A stretch of 64,000 bases of DNA. It comes from Betaproteobacteria bacterium (GTDB lineage: Bacteria > Pseudomonadota > Gammaproteobacteria > Burkholderiales > Rhodocyclaceae). The position numbers were made by a program, and so were the translations under genes. Positions 10,707 to 20,366 of the stretch are shown here, in pieces (the stretch's first letter is position 1; every line of letters begins with the position of its first letter). Location of the stretch: positions 310,001 to 374,000 of the forward strand of contig JACRAR010000074.1 in assembly GCA_016234745.1 (NCBI GenBank). The letters run 5' to 3'. Below the pieces are notes generated by a model. It worked only from the letters and a program-made list of their open reading frames with translations, was not told where the DNA came from and did no database searches.

Positions 10707-12197
10707 TCAGGCGAGATGCTGTGCCTGACGTTGCGGCAGGCTCGGGTTGGCGCCGACAACTGAACGCGTGCGCGAAGGCTGGCCGGCATAGTCGCTGGTA
10801 AGCAAGGATTTGATCCTGTCTTCGGGTACACCCCTGCTTTGCAGCCACTCCCCGACCAATCCGGCAAGGCGGTCCAGCGCGATGTGGTGCGTCGAATTTG
10901 TGCTGGCATACAGCCAATCGGAAAACGCCAGGAAGCTGGCGAAAGGCTGTGTGCCCAGCAACACCGGCAAGGTATTGGCGAAGCGTCCTGAATTGGCGAC
11001 CAGTTCCCAATAGCGGGCAAAGCGCCGCATGCGCTGCATGGTTTGGAAATCGATGCAATTTGTGGCGAGTATCTGATACGGCGGCGCCGGATCGAATACC
11101 AGGCCATAGCCTGCGCTGTGCCGGATGATGGGCGCACCGCGCAGCCGCTTGAGCATGCCGACCTGGATCTCGTGCGGTGCCAGCGCGACCAGGCGGTCGA
11201 AGCCGCGCCCGAAGCTGGCAAGGTCTTCTCCCGGCAGGCCGAAAATCAGATCCGCATGCAAATGAACCTGACTGTTTTGTCGCAACCAATGCAGATTGCC
11301 GGCTGCCTTGGCATTGTCCTGTTTGCGGCTGATCAGGTTTTGCACCTCGGGGTTCCAAGTCTGGATGCCAATTTCGAATTGCAGAGTACCGGATGGAAAC
11401 CTGGCGATGATTTCCTTGAGCGCTTCCGGCAGGTAATCCGGCACCACCTCGAAATGAGCAAAGACAGGATCGTCGGGGTTGGCGGCATGCTTGTCGAGCA
11501 GGAACCGGAGAATCCTGATGCTGGTCCCGATTTGCAGATTGAAAGTGCGATCGACAAACTTGAAACGGCGCGCACCCCTGGCATGGAGTTTTTCCAGTTC
11601 GCCGAGGAATGTATCCAAATTGAACGGCCAGGCCGTCTTGTCCAGCGCGGACAGGCAGAACTCGCACTTGAAGGGACAGCCGCGCGATGCCTCGACATAC
11701 AGGGTGCGATGCGCGATATCCGCGTCGGCATACAACGCATAGGGCAATTCCAGCGTCTCCAGGGAGACTTGCACGCCGGCCTGGATTCTGGGCGGTGGCG
11801 CCTGCCGGTCGGCATCCAGAAGCTGCCTGCACAATTGCGGCAGTGTCACTTCGCCCCAACCCGTGATCACATGATCCGCATGCTGGACGATGGCCTGCTC
11901 GGCGGTTTCAAAAGAAACCTCCGGCCCGCCGAGAACGATCCTGACCTCGGGCGCAACACGCTTGAGCATCTCGACAACCCAGGTGGTTTCGGCGACATTC
12001 CAGATATACACGCCAAACCCGACGATGCGCGGCGCATGCGCCAGCAAGCGTTCAACGATTTCCGCCGTGTCCGCAGCGGGAGAAAATTCGGCGATGCAGG
12101 TTTGCTGGCGCAGTTCGCCCAGGTTGGCCAGCAGGCAGCGCAAGCCGAGCGAAGCGTGGGCATAGCGCGCATTGATGGTGGCCAGAACGATGAGCAT
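10707..12197 (-). CDS. B12-binding domain radical SAM protein (DUF4080-type)
   Basis: A 496-residue protein from ATG 12197. Residues 1-130 form a cobalamin-binding-like domain (LIVLATINARYAHASLGLR, VGFGVYIWN, VLGGPEVSFE). The radical SAM domain carries the cluster motif Cys174-x3-Cys178-x2-Cys181 (GCPFKCEFC), then FEIGIQTWNPEVQ and DLIFGLPGE. The C-terminal part resembles DUF4080. Such proteins perform SAM-dependent radical chemistry, often methylations, on unknown substrates. A longer upstream frame exists but has no domain match, and it would overlap the promoter zone of the divergent lipoprotein gene. Convergent with the SDR gene. Confidence 0.88.
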   Translation of the reverse strand: MLIVLATINARYAHASLGLRCLLANLGELRQQTCIAEFSPAADTAEIVERLLAHAPRIVGFGVYIWNVAETTWVVEMLKRVAPEVRIVLGGPEVSFETAEQAIVQHADHVITGWGEVTLPQLCRQLLDADRQAPPPRIQAGVQVSLETLELPYALYADADIAHRTLYVEASRGCPFKCEFCLSALDKTAWPFNLDTFLGELEKLHARGARRFKFVDRTFNLQIGTSIRILRFLLDKHAANPDDPVFAHFEVVPDYLPEALKEIIARFPSGTLQFEIGIQTWNPEVQNLISRKQDNAKAAGNLHWLRQNSQVHLHADLIFGLPGEDLASFGRGFDRLVALAPHEIQVGMLKRLRGAPIIRHSAGYGLVFDPAPPYQILATNCIDFQTMQRMRRFARYWELVANSGRFANTLPVLLGTQPFASFLAFSDWLYASTNSTHHIALDRLAGLVGEWLQSRGVPEDRIKSLLTSDYAGQPSRTRSVVGANPSLPQRQAQHLA

Positions 12198-12276
12198 GGG
12201 GAAGCATATTACAGCGAGCCCGGGCCCTATTCCTTTTCGCTTGAAGCGGCCGAGGGGAATCGGGCAAAATGCTCCC

Positions 12277-13422
12277 ATGCGATTCCTGATGACCGCCTCG
12301 TTTGCCTGCCTCGCGGCGAGTACCCTATTCGTTGCCTGTGCATCCATCGGCCCCGAGACTACCGAGCAAGTGGTTGCGCCTGCTTCGGAGAGCGTCGTTT
12401 GGCAGGAGACTGAAACTGTCGCGACAGGGGCCTACAAGGCCTATCTTGAAGCCTATCCCAAAGGCAGCCATGCCGCGATCGCGCAAAACAAACTCAACGC
12501 GCTGCAAAGCGGTGGCGTACCGGCTGCTGTACCTGCTGTACCCGCAGGTGTACCCGCGGTTCCGGCCACCGACGCCAGGCAGCCCGGAAAAACTTTCAGG
12601 GACTGTGACGATTGCCCCGAGATGGTTGTCATCCCGGCGGGTTCCTTTCAGATGGGCTCGTCGAACAGCGAAGCAGGCCGATATCCAAGCGAAGACCCGA
12701 TCCACAAAGTCACCCTCGCGCGGGACTTTGCCCTCGGCAAGACACACATCACGCGGGGACAGTTTTCCCGATTCGTCCGCGCAACCGGCCACGATGCCGG
12801 GGGCAAGTGCTACACATTCGAGAACGGCAATTATATGGAGCGCAGCGAGCGCAGTTGGCGCGACCCGGGATTTGAGCAAAAGGACGACCATCCCGCGGTG
12901 TGCGTGAACTGGAGCGATGCCAAAGCCTACGTCGAATGGCTATCGAGAAAGACCGGCAAAAACTACCGCCTGCCAAGCGAGGCGGAATGGGAATATGCGG
13001 CAAGGGCCGGGACCGCAACGGCAAGATATTGGGGCGACAACCCGGACCAGGCCTGCAGCTATGCCAATGTGATGGACAGCGCGGGCAAGGAAAAGGTGCC
13101 GGGGGTCAACTGGGAGTCGCACAATTGCTCGGATGGCTACGCCTATACCTCCCCGGCGGCCAGTTTCAAGCCCAACGCGTTTGGTCTATACGACATGATC
13201 GGCAATGCCTGGGAATGGACAGAGGATTGCTGGAATGAAAACTACACTGGCGCACCCACCGATGGCAGCGCATGGAAACACGGCGAATGCCTGAAGCGCG
13301 TGCTGCGCGGAGGTTCCTGGTACTACACCCCGCGCTATGCGCGTTCGGCCACGCGCTATCGATTTCTTGCGACATTCCGCAACTACATCTACGGCTTCCG
13401 GATCGCCAGCTCGCTGCCTTGA
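12277..13422 (+). CDS. SUMF1/formylglycine-generating-enzyme-like lipoprotein
   Basis: From ATG 12277 the product is 381 residues. It begins with a lipoprotein-type signal (MRFLMTASFACLAAS...VAC), followed by a short TPR-less linker and a low-complexity VPA repeat (AVPAVPAGVPAVPAT). Residues from about 108 to the end are an FGE-sulfatase (SUMF1) domain: MVVIPAGSFQMGS, CVNWSDAKAYVEWLS, YRLPSEAEWEYAARAG, NAFGLYDMIGNAWEWTEDC, VLRGGSWYY. True FGE oxidises a sulfatase Cys to formylglycine, but many family members are non-catalytic binding or scaffolding modules. No sulfatase is nearby. The role is uncertain; localisation to the outer or inner membrane as a lipoprotein is inferred. Confidence 0.85.
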   Translation: MRFLMTASFACLAASTLFVACASIGPETTEQVVAPASESVVWQETETVATGAYKAYLEAYPKGSHAAIAQNKLNALQSGGVPAAVPAVPAGVPAVPATDARQPGKTFRDCDDCPEMVVIPAGSFQMGSSNSEAGRYPSEDPIHKVTLARDFALGKTHITRGQFSRFVRATGHDAGGKCYTFENGNYMERSERSWRDPGFEQKDDHPAVCVNWSDAKAYVEWLSRKTGKNYRLPSEAEWEYAARAGTATARYWGDNPDQACSYANVMDSAGKEKVPGVNWESHNCSDGYAYTSPAASFKPNAFGLYDMIGNAWEWTEDCWNENYTGAPTDGSAWKHGECLKRVLRGGSWYYTPRYARSATRYRFLATFRNYIYGFRIASSLP

Positions 13423-13519
13423 AATCCGGGTTTCCCTGGATATTCAAAACCATGGATAAAAAGGGGTCTCGCGATTAAAATTGACACATTGCAGCACAAA
13501 CTGGCTTGGAGAATCAGAC

Positions 13520-14176
13520 ATGGCCGTGGGATTGTTAAGCAGGCTCATTGCAGCAGTGTCGCCAAAAAACGACGACTTCTTCAGACTCTTCAATGAACTT
13601 GCTGCATGTACCGTGCGTGGTGCGCGAATCATCGCCCGGATGAGCCTGATGGAGGACCCGACGGCCTTCAATCAGCTTTTCGACGAAATCACCAAGACCG
13701 AGGGCGAGGCCGACGAGGTCACCAAACAAATCTTTCTTGCCCTGCACAAGAGTTTCATTACGCCCTTCGACCGCTGGGAGATCAAGGATCTGGCGATCGC
13801 GCTCGATGACATGGTCGACTGCATGGAAGACATTCCACAACGGGCGAGATTGTACGGTCCCGGCACGTTCACCAAGGAAATGTCCTCGCTGGGCCAAATC
13901 AACTTGCGTGCCGTGGAAAAAGTCCAGGAAGCTGTCTCGCTCCTGTCCGATATGCAGAACGCTCCGCGCATCCTGAAAATCTGCCAGGAGATCGGAGAGA
14001 TCGAAAGCGATGCCGACCGCACCATGCGCACCGGGATGGAACGCCTGTTTGCCGAGGCGAGCGATGCCCGGGCCTTGATTCGCGCAAAAGAACTTTATGA
14101 ACTTTTTGAGGAAGCCGTCGACCGCTGCGAAGACGCAGCCGATGTGATTCATGGCCTGGTTCTGGAACGCATATGA
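13520..14176 (+). CDS. DUF47 (PhoU-like) protein associated with Pit
   Basis: A 218-residue DUF47 protein. These are PhoU-like helical bundles encoded immediately upstream of low-affinity phosphate transporters and thought to modulate them. Characteristic segments are NDDFFRLFNELAACTVRGAR, ITKTEGEADEVTKQIFLALH, FITPFDRWEIKDLAIALDDM and the C-terminal LYELFEEAVDRCEDAADVIH. The start ATG 13520 has a GGAG nine bases upstream; an earlier in-frame start would add 13 atypical residues. The stop overlaps the pit start by four bases (ATGA). A TTGACA hexamer near 13484 could be a -35 element but no good -10 is visible. Confidence 0.92.
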   Translation: MAVGLLSRLIAAVSPKNDDFFRLFNELAACTVRGARIIARMSLMEDPTAFNQLFDEITKTEGEADEVTKQIFLALHKSFITPFDRWEIKDLAIALDDMVDCMEDIPQRARLYGPGTFTKEMSSLGQINLRAVEKVQEAVSLLSDMQNAPRILKICQEIGEIESDADRTMRTGMERLFAEASDARALIRAKELYELFEEAVDRCEDAADVIHGLVLERI

Positions 14177-15232: not shown

Positions 15233-16552
15233 TCAAGTTCCCGCTGCGCGCACCTCGGCCAACGCCAGTTCCACCCAGAAGGTGCTGCCCGGTTCTGCTG
15301 TGGGAGCAAAACCGATCCGTCCCCGCATCCTTTCGGTCAAGCGTTTTGCTATTGCAAGTCCGAGACCCGCCCCGTGTGTTGTCCCGGTTTCAGCGCCCAG
15401 ATGGACAAAAGGCTCGAACAATTCACTGCGCTTGTCGCTCGCAACCCCGGTACCGGTATCGGTTACGACGATGCGCAGGTAGTCGGCACCGGCCGATCGG
15501 CAAGAGATCGTGACTTTGCCGCCGGCGCGATTAAACTTTACAGCGTTCGACAGCAGATTCAGAAGCACTTGCTTCACGAGAACGCGGTCAGCCCAGACAA
15601 TCCATCCAATGCCATCATCGCAGTCGATGACCAAGGTAATGTCTTTTTTTTGCGCTTCCAGCTCGATTATTGACAGACAGGACGCAATGATTTGTTCCGC
15701 ATGGAGAGGCTCCATGTTCACCTTCAACTCGCCCGCCTCGATGCGGCTCATTTCCAGCACCCGCGTCACCAGATCCAGCAAATATTTCCCCGCGGCCGAT
15801 ATATGCTCGATAGCTCTGAGCTGTTCATTGTTCAGCGTCTTCGCCTCATTGGCATAGAGCAGTTCAGCAAATCCCAGGACGGTATTCAGCGGGGTGCGCA
15901 ACTCATCGCTCATCACCGTCAGGAACACGGATTTGGCGCGGCTTGATTGCTCGGCGGCATGCAGCGCGGCGCGCAAATGAGTTTTGGTGATTGCGCGTTC
16001 GCGCGCCACCACGATTCCCGCAAGCACGACCAAGCCAACCGAACCCAGCATGGTCGTCAGCATCAGCGCAGGCATGTCCGAGCCCAGAATTAAACTTGTG
16101 GGAAGCCAACCCTGCGTCGTAGTCAGATACAGAAGCACCAGTACACCCATCATGGTGACGCCCGTGATCAGCAAGATGGCTGTGTTGCCAAAGGTGCTCA
16201 GCAGGGCGATATTCGCGAGAAACGCCGGTAGAGCGATTGAAGCGATGCCGCCAGTGAGAAAGGCCCATGCGGCAACGATCAGAATGCCCCCGATGTTCGT
16301 TGTCACCAGGCCCAGGGTGATGTCGGCGGTTGCGCGAATCAGAAGCGCCCCCAAGGCGGGCGTGCCAATGGTCACAGCGAACAGGGCGTACTCGGCAAGG
16401 GACAAGCGTCCTCGCACAAAAACGTAGCCAACGAAAACCAATAAAGTGACCAGCGAAATAGACAGCAGGGATTTTGCGATACCCCGGTGACGCGTGTTTT
16501 TTCGAGGGTCACCCAGAACATGCGGTGGCACTAACCAGGCGATGAAATCCAT
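15233..16552 (-). CDS. Membrane histidine kinase homologue lacking the phospho-accepting His
   Basis: A 439-residue protein. Residues 28-185 contain about six hydrophobic segments (a MASE-like sensor). Residues 205-270 are a HisKA dimerisation domain, and the rest a HATPase domain with N-box (LLNLLSNAVKFN), G1 (DTGTGV) and G2 (GAGLGLAIAK). The H-box reads VMSDELRTPLN where SHELRTPLN is expected: residue 216 is Asp (codon GAT) instead of His. The ATP site is therefore intact but the normal phosphorylation site is missing. It could be a pseudokinase that modulates a partner kinase. No response regulator is adjacent. Convergent with pit. Confidence 0.88.
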   Translation of the reverse strand: MDFIAWLVPPHVLGDPRKNTRHRGIAKSLLSISLVTLLVFVGYVFVRGRLSLAEYALFAVTIGTPALGALLIRATADITLGLVTTNIGGILIVAAWAFLTGGIASIALPAFLANIALLSTFGNTAILLITGVTMMGVLVLLYLTTTQGWLPTSLILGSDMPALMLTTMLGSVGLVVLAGIVVARERAITKTHLRAALHAAEQSSRAKSVFLTVMSDELRTPLNTVLGFAELLYANEAKTLNNEQLRAIEHISAAGKYLLDLVTRVLEMSRIEAGELKVNMEPLHAEQIIASCLSIIELEAQKKDITLVIDCDDGIGWIVWADRVLVKQVLLNLLSNAVKFNRAGGKVTISCRSAGADYLRIVVTDTGTGVASDKRSELFEPFVHLGAETGTTHGAGLGLAIAKRLTERMRGRIGFAPTAEPGSTFWVELALAEVRAAGT

Positions 16553-16902: not shown

Positions 16903-17247
16903 CTATTTTTCCCTCTTGGCTGGCTTCCTAGTTTTGATTTGTGCAGGACGCTTCAACGCAGTCAGCACGGCGCGGTCTTCGAGATCGGCCAGACAAAGAA
17001 CTGCTGCTCGGATCAAATAACTCTTTCGGGCTGTTACTCCCATCGCCAGGCAGCGTTTCTTCAGTCCTCGAATCAAAGCGTGTTCCGTCTCAGGCATGGT
17101 GAACTTATAGCGAATCAACTGAACCTTCTTAGCTTTGGCGACCGTGCTGGCCTTTTCCGGCTTAGAGACATGAGAAGTCTTACTTTTCTGCGTAACAGCC
17201 GGCTTGAGGGCTGACTTTGAGGCCAACACTTGGGGCGGTTTGGTCAA
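16903..17247 (-). CDS. Small Lys-rich protein, possible ribbon-helix-helix-like
   Basis: A 114-residue basic protein. The first 45 residues are a disordered Lys/Ala/Ser/Pro-rich tail. Residues from about 46 form a compact domain (YKFTMPETEHALIRGLKKRC, then GVTARKSYLIRAAV) whose strand-helix-helix appearance resembles small DNA-binding proteins. I recall similar Lys-tailed proteins in betaproteobacteria, but know no function. It starts 20 bp after the phoR stop, on the same strand, so it is probably the last cistron of the pst-pho operon. Nucleic-acid binding is inference from charge and shape. Confidence 0.7.
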   Translation of the reverse strand: MTKPPQVLASKSALKPAVTQKSKTSHVSKPEKASTVAKAKKVQLIRYKFTMPETEHALIRGLKKRCLAMGVTARKSYLIRAAVLCLADLEDRAVLTALKRPAQIKTRKPAKREK

Positions 17248-19311: not shown

Positions 19312-19647
19312 CTAAACGCAGTTAAAACGGTATCCAACACCACGTACAGACTGAACAAGTGTTCGTCCCCGGTTACCCAGGGCAATTCGCAAACGCCGCA
19401 CAGAAACATCGATCGTGCGCTGCTGGATGGATCTTAGACTCTGCGCGAATTGAAGTGCGGATTTGCCGGGCAATAGCCAATCGATCAGAATAACTTCGGG
19501 CAGCTTCCTATGTATGGCCTGAAGTGCCTCTTCAACAGAAGGAGTAGCTTCGACATCAAAACCTGCTTTTGCTAGGGCATTAGCCAACAGTTGTCGAACT
19601 GCAGCATCTGTCTCAACTGCCATCGCGTAGGTCTGAATACCGCTCAT
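19312..19647 (-). CDS. Miniature PhoB paralogue with an internal deletion
   Basis: A 111-residue open frame. Residues 1-73 are the first half of a response-regulator receiver domain, including phospho-acceptor Asp56 in VILIDWLLPGKS. It then jumps in frame, at LRS-IQ-QRT, to the very end of a PhoB-type winged helix: the recognition helix (RTIDVSVRRLRIAL) and wing (VRGVGYRF). About 110 codons, comprising the rest of the receiver, the linker and half of the effector domain, are missing. It differs from the neighbouring phoB at many positions, so it is an old duplicate. The start overlaps the phoU stop by four bases (ATGA). Either a remnant kept open or a small regulatory peptide. Confidence 0.75.
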   Translation of the reverse strand: MSGIQTYAMAVETDAAVRQLLANALAKAGFDVEATPSVEEALQAIHRKLPEVILIDWLLPGKSALQFAQSLRSIQQRTIDVSVRRLRIALGNRGRTLVQSVRGVGYRFNCV

Positions 19648-20366
19648 TCGATTTCGTCCGCTCCCTGGGCTTCACGCTCAAGCTGGTCAAAAGCCACGTG
19701 GCGCACATCCGTACCCCGGGTGATGTAGATAATTTGCTCCGCGATGTTCTTGGCGTGATCCCCAATACGTTCCACTGCCTTGGCAATGAACATGACTTCG
19801 AAGGAAATCGAAATCATGCGTGGATCTTCCATGATGAAAGTAATCAGCTGACGCGTGATTCCCTGAAATTTTCGATCGATTTCCAGGTCATCGCGGACAA
19901 TGGCCGCTGCCGCGACGGCATCCTGGCGGGCAAAGGCGTTAAGCGCAGTGCGCAGCAATCCAACCGCCATTTCGCCCGCCTCGCGAATGTCCGCAAGACA
20001 AGGGATGCGCATTTTGCCCTCGGCAAAGATGACCTTCCCTTTGCGGGCGATCAGCGCTGCTTTGTCCCCGCATCTTTCCAGGTCTGTGACGATCTTGCTG
20101 ATGCCCATCAGCATACGCAGGTCGACAGCTGTTGGTTGGCGGCGCGCGATGATCAGCGCACAGGTCTGATCGATTTCAACTTCATCGGCATTGATGCGAT
20201 GATCGTTCTTGTCGACCCGCTCCATTTCTATCAGATCGAATTCGCTGAGCGCCTTGATCGCGTCGTGGATCTGCAACTCGACCAAACCACCCATCTGAAG
20301 AACGCGGGTGCGGATTTCTTCCAGTTCCTGATCGTAGCGCTTGAATGAATGGTCATTGGACGGCAT
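19644..20366 (-). CDS. phoU: Phosphate signalling protein PhoU
   Basis: A 240-residue cytoplasmic protein made of two PhoU repeats (three-helix bundles). Hallmarks are FKRYDQELEEIRTRVLQMGG at the N-terminus, the metal-binding style sequences KIVTDLERCGDKA and FIAKAVERIGDHAKNIAE, and a central repeat boundary. It links Pst transport activity to PhoR. It follows pstB by 21 bp and overlaps the mini-PhoB gene by four. Length equals the family norm. Confidence 0.96.
   Translation of the reverse strand: MPSNDHSFKRYDQELEEIRTRVLQMGGLVELQIHDAIKALSEFDLIEMERVDKNDHRINADEVEIDQTCALIIARRQPTAVDLRMLMGISKIVTDLERCGDKAALIARKGKVIFAEGKMRIPCLADIREAGEMAVGLLRTALNAFARQDAVAAAAIVRDDLEIDRKFQGITRQLITFIMEDPRMISISFEVMFIAKAVERIGDHAKNIAEQIIYITRGTDVRHVAFDQLEREAQGADEIE

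Follow-up and report, generated by a model that had tools for sequence, protein, structure and literature searches.

Results

A histidine kinase core with Asp at the phospho-acceptor position

The window, by which we mean the whole 64,000-nucleotide stretch of a Betaproteobacteria bacterium genome that was analysed, carries on its minus strand, at 15233..16552, an ATG-initiated open reading frame of 439 amino acids that encodes a putative pseudo-histidine kinase. The protein contains a HisKA (DHp) domain at residues 207-274 (15731..15934, minus strand; Pfam PF00512, 4.5e-15, 55.9 bits) and a HATPase_c (CA) domain at residues 322-431 (15260..15589, minus strand; PF02518, 2.6e-24, 86.3 bits), both exceeding the curated Pfam gathering cut-offs. 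Residues 1-190 (15983..16552, minus strand) form a membrane region of around six hydrophobic helices to which Pfam, at E<=0.1, assigned no family. Six long helices also appear in the N-terminal part of an AF2 model that was built from two sequences and is of low confidence (mean pLDDT 52.6). The same Pfam search gave no PAS match (E<=0.1) and no receiver domain anywhere in the protein.

The H box reads MSDELRTPLN. The codon GAT at 15905..15907 of the minus strand (ATC in plus-strand letters) places Asp216 where the phospho-accepting His is expected, a substitution first pointed out from the sequence alone and now confirmed by the reading frame and its translation. The protein has every motif that we take to be an N, G1, F or G2 box, in line with the description of the N, G1 and G2 boxes as intact. 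The N box spans residues 332-341 (15530..15559, minus strand) and includes N336 and N341; the G1 box, DTGTG, spans residues 365-369 (15446..15460, minus strand), and the G2 box, GAGLGL, residues 394-399 (15356..15373, minus strand). With Asp216 in place of the phospho-acceptor His of an active sensor histidine kinase, the window protein cannot relay phosphate via a His of its own. Both domains remain recognisable, the His is absent beyond what an isolated error would produce and the gene is under selection, as described below. The protein would thus belong among the pseudo-histidine kinases, a known kind of protein.

Orthologues and their distribution

Orthologues were separated from the numerous other kinases by a query with the N-terminal residues 1-207. 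Matches were found in 24 of 395 genomes of the family (six of them in genus g18), in 19 of 31 genomes of genus g2, some of which are incomplete, in two of three genomes of genus g118 and in three of 399 genomes of the order, the window genome included. The window genome was the sole match among 369 genomes of the class; the family, genus, order and class samples overlap. The genus of the window itself has the gene in two of four genomes. Viral contigs and plasmids were also searched and contained no relative of the window gene.

The resulting set of 24 full-length orthologues comprises the window gene, G002 from the same genus, 19 genes of g2, two of g118 and L060, which comes from a Betaproteobacteria metagenome-assembled genome and is 72% identical. 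Six g18 loci (L081-L086) were excluded as long kinases with only the N-terminus in common. All 24 orthologues are open over 434-457 codons including the stop, and all have the N-terminal membrane region.

The phospho-acceptor site varies among orthologues

Is the missing His peculiar to the window gene? The site is His in ten orthologues and another residue in 14 (Asp 1, Ala 1, Asn 5, Gln 7); Tyr occurs in none of the 24. As to whether Asp216 is fixed among orthologues, which the sequence-only reading asked, loss of the His is recurrent, and among the 24 Asp itself occurs in the window protein alone. The closest orthologue found, G002 (77% identical), has Ala (codon GCC), the next closest, L060, has His (codon CAT), and the most distant ones, L090 and L091 from another family, have His as well.

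Around this site R205, A206, K207, F210, L211, E217, R219, P221 and L222 are invariant in 24/24, and the other variable sites of the H-box region are 212, 214, 218, 220, 223 and 224. With a relative rate of 1.15, site 216 is the fastest within 203-222, yet over the full protein it ranks only at the 68th percentile. Site 220 (H+4) is Thr in 12 orthologues, Ala in 11 and Glu in one, and seven of the 14 His-less proteins have Ala or Glu there. Only five of the 24 keep both the His and Thr220, against 21 of 21 PhoR orthologues in a matched control, for which 23 orthologue-bearing genomes were searched (that of L060 was not included) and 21 gave a match. In the nucleotide site, N336, N341, D365, G367, G369 and G396 are invariant in all 24 proteins, the His-less ones included. 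Ser occupies the position of G394 in four of the 24 and that of G398 likewise in four; those with Ser at G398 are four of the five Asn-type proteins, where this change hints at further decay.

Other histidine kinases of these genomes keep the residue. For the control we took 64 loci: from the window genome 29 of its 52 other matches, and besides these 27 from relatives, two labelled genome_contigs and the six of g18. Two of the 64 gave no alignment at the site, and one (L023) was the window gene itself. The aligned site was His in 61/61 scorable loci, which correspond to 60 distinct genes because one gene is listed twice, as L050 and L085. Among the g18 loci, His was found in five of six; the sixth, L086, was unscorable, its frame departing from kinase sequence after the PAS part. 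In Fisher's exact test the orthologues differ from PhoR at 1.2e-5 and from the 61 loci at 5e-10, values that ignore kinship and so overstate the certainty. In general such loss is rare: one survey counts 722 of 76,471 HisKA domains (0.9%) without the His (PMC12632262).

Repeated loss of the histidine

In a tree computed with the His column removed, parsimony places His at the root and requires five losses, the Asp and Ala of the window genus being scored as one. Support is weak at several inner nodes within genus g2. Over 1000 bootstrap trees, the count with irreversible loss was four in 162 trees, five in 830 and six in eight; with reversal allowed it was four in 163, five in 832 and six in five. 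The best root state by parsimony was His in 1000/1000.

Constrained trees were also compared. The AU test rejects a single clade of all His-less proteins (p 2.7e-48), of Asn plus Gln (p 2.3e-52), of Gln (p 0.005) and of Asn plus Asp plus Ala (p 0.003), and does not reject a common clade for Asn (p 0.32). Under the SH test, which is more conservative, only the all-His-less and the Asn plus Gln clades fall, leaving the Gln clade (p 0.21) and the Asn plus Asp plus Ala clade (p 0.064) standing. A single ancestral loss is rejected by the AU test (p 2.7e-48) and by the SH test too. From this alignment-based history we infer that the ancestor had His and that the residue was lost at least four times within the group. 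We put the count at four or more rather than at five because one Asn origin is not rejected and the loss in L089 is possibly not separate from that of the other Asn members.

The His-less proteins are under purifying selection

Simple pairwise Nei-Gojobori counts, in which some pairs share branches and dS rises to 1.04, gave full-length dN/dS values of 0.09-0.35 for eight His-less pairs, with 0.14-0.30 in the CA domain and 0.02-0.52 in the DHp domain, the top value coming from the pair L073/L075. Four His-bearing pairs were similar (0.19-0.29 full length, 0.12-0.33 in CA). The window gene and its closest orthologue gave 0.16. A mixed pair, L031 (Ala) and L060 (His), excluded from these ranges, gave 0.29 over the full length. 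The His-less proteins are thus under purifying selection. Mean site rates are 0.88 for the membrane part, 1.00 for DHp and 1.06 for CA: the kinase core is maintained though it is not the slowest-evolving part, and DHp evolves at the average rate.

Genomic surroundings

In the window the gene is flanked by pit (PHO4 family) and phoR, which bears out its description as lying between pit and a pst-pho block. It was also said to have no partner regulator beside it; this holds in the window, the nearby regulators being the phoB paired with phoR and a shortened phoB-like frame. The latter, at 19312-19647 on the minus strand between phoB and phoU, would encode 111 amino acids in which part of a receiver (residues 10-77) joins the end of a DNA-binding domain (profile positions 41-77), the middle being missing. 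At 20 other PhoR loci, no separate match to it was seen within the short flanks that were retrieved. A further frame of 114 amino acids (16903-17247, minus strand), without a significant Pfam match, lies between the pseudokinase gene and phoR, and a frame at 12172-13422 on the plus strand encodes a formylglycine-generating-enzyme (sulfatase-modifying factor) domain (1.8e-69).

Does this neighbourhood make PhoR a partner? In none of the 23 other orthologue loci did a pit, pst, phoU or phoR orthologue appear beside the gene, some of these stretches ending at contig ends (as in G002). Conversely, at 20/20 other PhoR loci phoB and phoR are adjacent and the gene is absent from the flanking sequence retrieved, which reached up to 1.5 kb. 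With no conserved linkage seen in these stretches in either direction (0/23 and 0/20), a PhoR partnership was rejected as a candidate. Modulation of PhoR, which had been proposed from the position of the gene, is not supported, since linkage to phoR, pst and pit was seen in the window genome only; as far as we have seen, the location beside phoR appears to be a feature of one genome.

The window phoU (19644-20366, minus strand) is 51-53% identical to the single phoU of each of three congeners, in which the fetched stretches show no pst or pit gene beside phoU. The pho-pst block of the window genome may be of different origin. Two of these congeners are without the pseudokinase gene and the third is G002, whose fetched phoU region does not contain it; this comparison adds little on the PhoR link.

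Elsewhere the neighbours differ between orthologue subgroups, with blocks in common inside genus g2, and no kinase gene turned up as a shared neighbour of the orthologue loci. A search for receiver domains identified genes in seven of the 23 other loci, none closer to the pseudokinase gene than 1.8 kb. Among the five Asn-type loci, four (L094, L096, L098 and L100) have a LuxR-type response regulator 1.8-6.1 kb away in opposite orientation, and three further loci (L106, L107 and L113) have receiver domains several kb away, as well as weak PhoB- or PhoR-like matches (31-33% identity) at a distance of several kb. We take none of these regulators to be the partner. The next downstream gene in G002 encodes a carbonic anhydrase (Pro_CA).

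Only one other locus shares a clear neighbour with the window. A B12-binding radical SAM gene (DUF4080) lies in the window at 10707-12347, on the same (minus) strand as the pseudokinase gene and 2.9 kb downstream of it, pit and two further genes intervening. L112, a 49% identical orthologue from another family, has a homologue 1.8 kb downstream on the same strand (12455-13810, plus strand). The two radical SAM genes are 65% identical; we give this neighbour no weight because it was found in one of 23 loci only. The remaining match to a window neighbour is a weak one to a dehydrogenase (31%) in L100.

Discussion

The suggestion that this gene encodes a pseudokinase has come out stronger than it was proposed, with repeated loss of the His in genes under purifying selection. 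The literature that we searched, as titles and abstract openings, held no earlier report of a group with at least four His losses together with His-keeping sisters, and from our reading of a limited literature the roles of most His-less HisKA proteins are little understood. The orthologues described here constitute a natural series: the His has gone independently at least four times, sisters that still carry it exist for comparison, and catalytic residues vary in a protein that is otherwise maintained. Such a group allows a direct question to be asked: can a histidine-kinase core signal without phosphotransfer?

What could the His-less proteins do? We consider that there is about an even chance that they are pseudo-histidine kinases in which a six-helix membrane sensor is joined to a core that acts as a binding module, without phosphate relay via its own His. 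The DHp-CA core would still dimerise and bind nucleotide, and its conformation would shift with a signal at the membrane. It might then form a pair with a second histidine kinase, in the manner of RetS and GacS, or bind a response regulator and hand that state on, in the manner of DivL with DivK and CckA; either way, another pathway would be tuned. A new acceptor at site 216 is unlikely because Asp, Ala, Asn and Gln share no chemistry. The His-less proteins do keep an open frame under purifying selection, the part of the H box that is invariant and the main residues of the nucleotide site. Counting against the binding module are the ten His-keeping orthologues, which may be true kinases; conservation of the nucleotide site would also suit catalysis in trans or a phosphatase.

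A related scenario would accommodate the His-bearing proteins. The ancestral six-helix kinase might have acted mainly by binding, so that the His and the phosphatase Thr were free to go, lineages converted in parallel to phosphate-free signalling, and His-bearing and His-less orthologues would do the same job. We advance this tentatively, as a possibility somewhat short of probable.

The invariance of N336, N341, D365, G367, G369 and G396 even where the His is gone, together with the CA dN/dS of 0.14-0.30 in the eight His-less pairs, is also what a kinase acting in trans would show: as one half of a heterodimer with a partner kinase, its intact CA domain would phosphorylate the His of the partner, and its own would be dispensable. 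However, four of the five Asn-type orthologues have Ser at G398, the CA domain evolves no more slowly than other parts of the protein (mean rate 1.06) and no kinase gene turned up as a shared neighbour, and we think such a role unlikely.

The window protein also retains E217 and T220, which we take to be a motif of the E/DxxT/N type, and it could thus be a phosphatase only, dephosphorylating a response regulator. One survey describes the conserved His as contributing to, but inessential for, the phosphatase activity of HisKA proteins, and argues against phosphatase action as a general role of pseudo-histidine kinases (PMC12632262). We regard this function as unlikely here, since T220 is replaced by Ala or Glu in 12 of the 24 orthologues, including half of the His-less ones, and the nearest receiver gene across the 23 other loci is 1.8 kb away.

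Could the gene simply be decaying, as a dispensable kinase that loses its function lineage by lineage? Its patchy presence (two of four genomes in the window genus, 19 of 31 in g2, some incomplete), its variable locus context and the Ser at G398 in the Asn-type proteins would be in keeping with this. Nevertheless, the 24 frames are all open over 434-457 codons including the stop, the full-length dN/dS of the His-less pairs (0.09-0.35) is similar to that of His-bearing ones, and there is no variation at nine residues near site 216 or at the main ATP-site residues, which makes decay improbable. A sequencing or assembly error from CAT to GAT in the window, for which one base change suffices and which the CAT of the second-closest orthologue (72%) would suit, is very improbable indeed, since the closest orthologue, of the same genus, already has Ala (GCC), so that the His was either gone before or separately lost, and it is missing elsewhere in the group.

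Comparison with known systems

The reading of the core as a binding module can be set beside several known proteins. Among them are the g18 hybrid kinases (L081-L086) with PAS, HisKA, HATPase and REC domains, whose N-terminal region is 37-41% identical to that of the window protein. Unlike it, they carry PAS domains and a receiver domain (as determined by Pfam on L050) and have His in five of the six loci. The similar N-terminal membrane region is possibly a sensor domain that has yet to be described. The sequence of the window core scores highest with hybrid-type kinases such as TorS and BarA, far under the curated cut-offs. The family may thus be a stripped-down hybrid kinase that would have lost PAS and REC and then the His; this direction is conjectural, and domain shuffling would fit equally.

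RetS of Pseudomonas aeruginosa is a hybrid kinase, unlike the window protein, which has no receiver domain. Its solved core matches the window core at 3.6e-24. RetS is described as a histidine kinase that controls the kinase GacS by hetero-oligomerisation (PMC9491836). In the same text, a catalytically inactive ChrS variant of Corynebacterium glutamicum promotes phosphotransfer by its paralogue HrrS, whether by a direct or an indirect route, and heterodimers were seen for native ChrS and not for the truncated version (PMC9491836). The CA domain of that variant was broken by a frameshift in laboratory evolution (PMC9491836), whereas the window protein keeps its CA domain and lost its His in nature. 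By analogy, the ChrS variant would be a less direct precedent than RetS for a kinase-like protein that influences another kinase.

DivL of Caulobacter crescentus resembles the window protein in having a HisKA-type DHp-CA core in which the phospho-accepting His is replaced and the other boxes are kept; its essential roles are reported to be independent of kinase activity, and it binds ATP weakly (PMC4211667). The solved DivL structure (4q20) matches the window core at 2.5e-27 and has Tyr at the aligned site. The two differ in that DivL has PAS domains, whereas the window protein has a membrane N-terminus and no PAS match. They differ also in the fate of the site itself: the Tyr is described as conserved in DivL homologues, with one Ala exception (PMC4211667), whereas the window orthologue group mixes His, Asp, Ala, Asn and Gln, and Tyr is absent from it.
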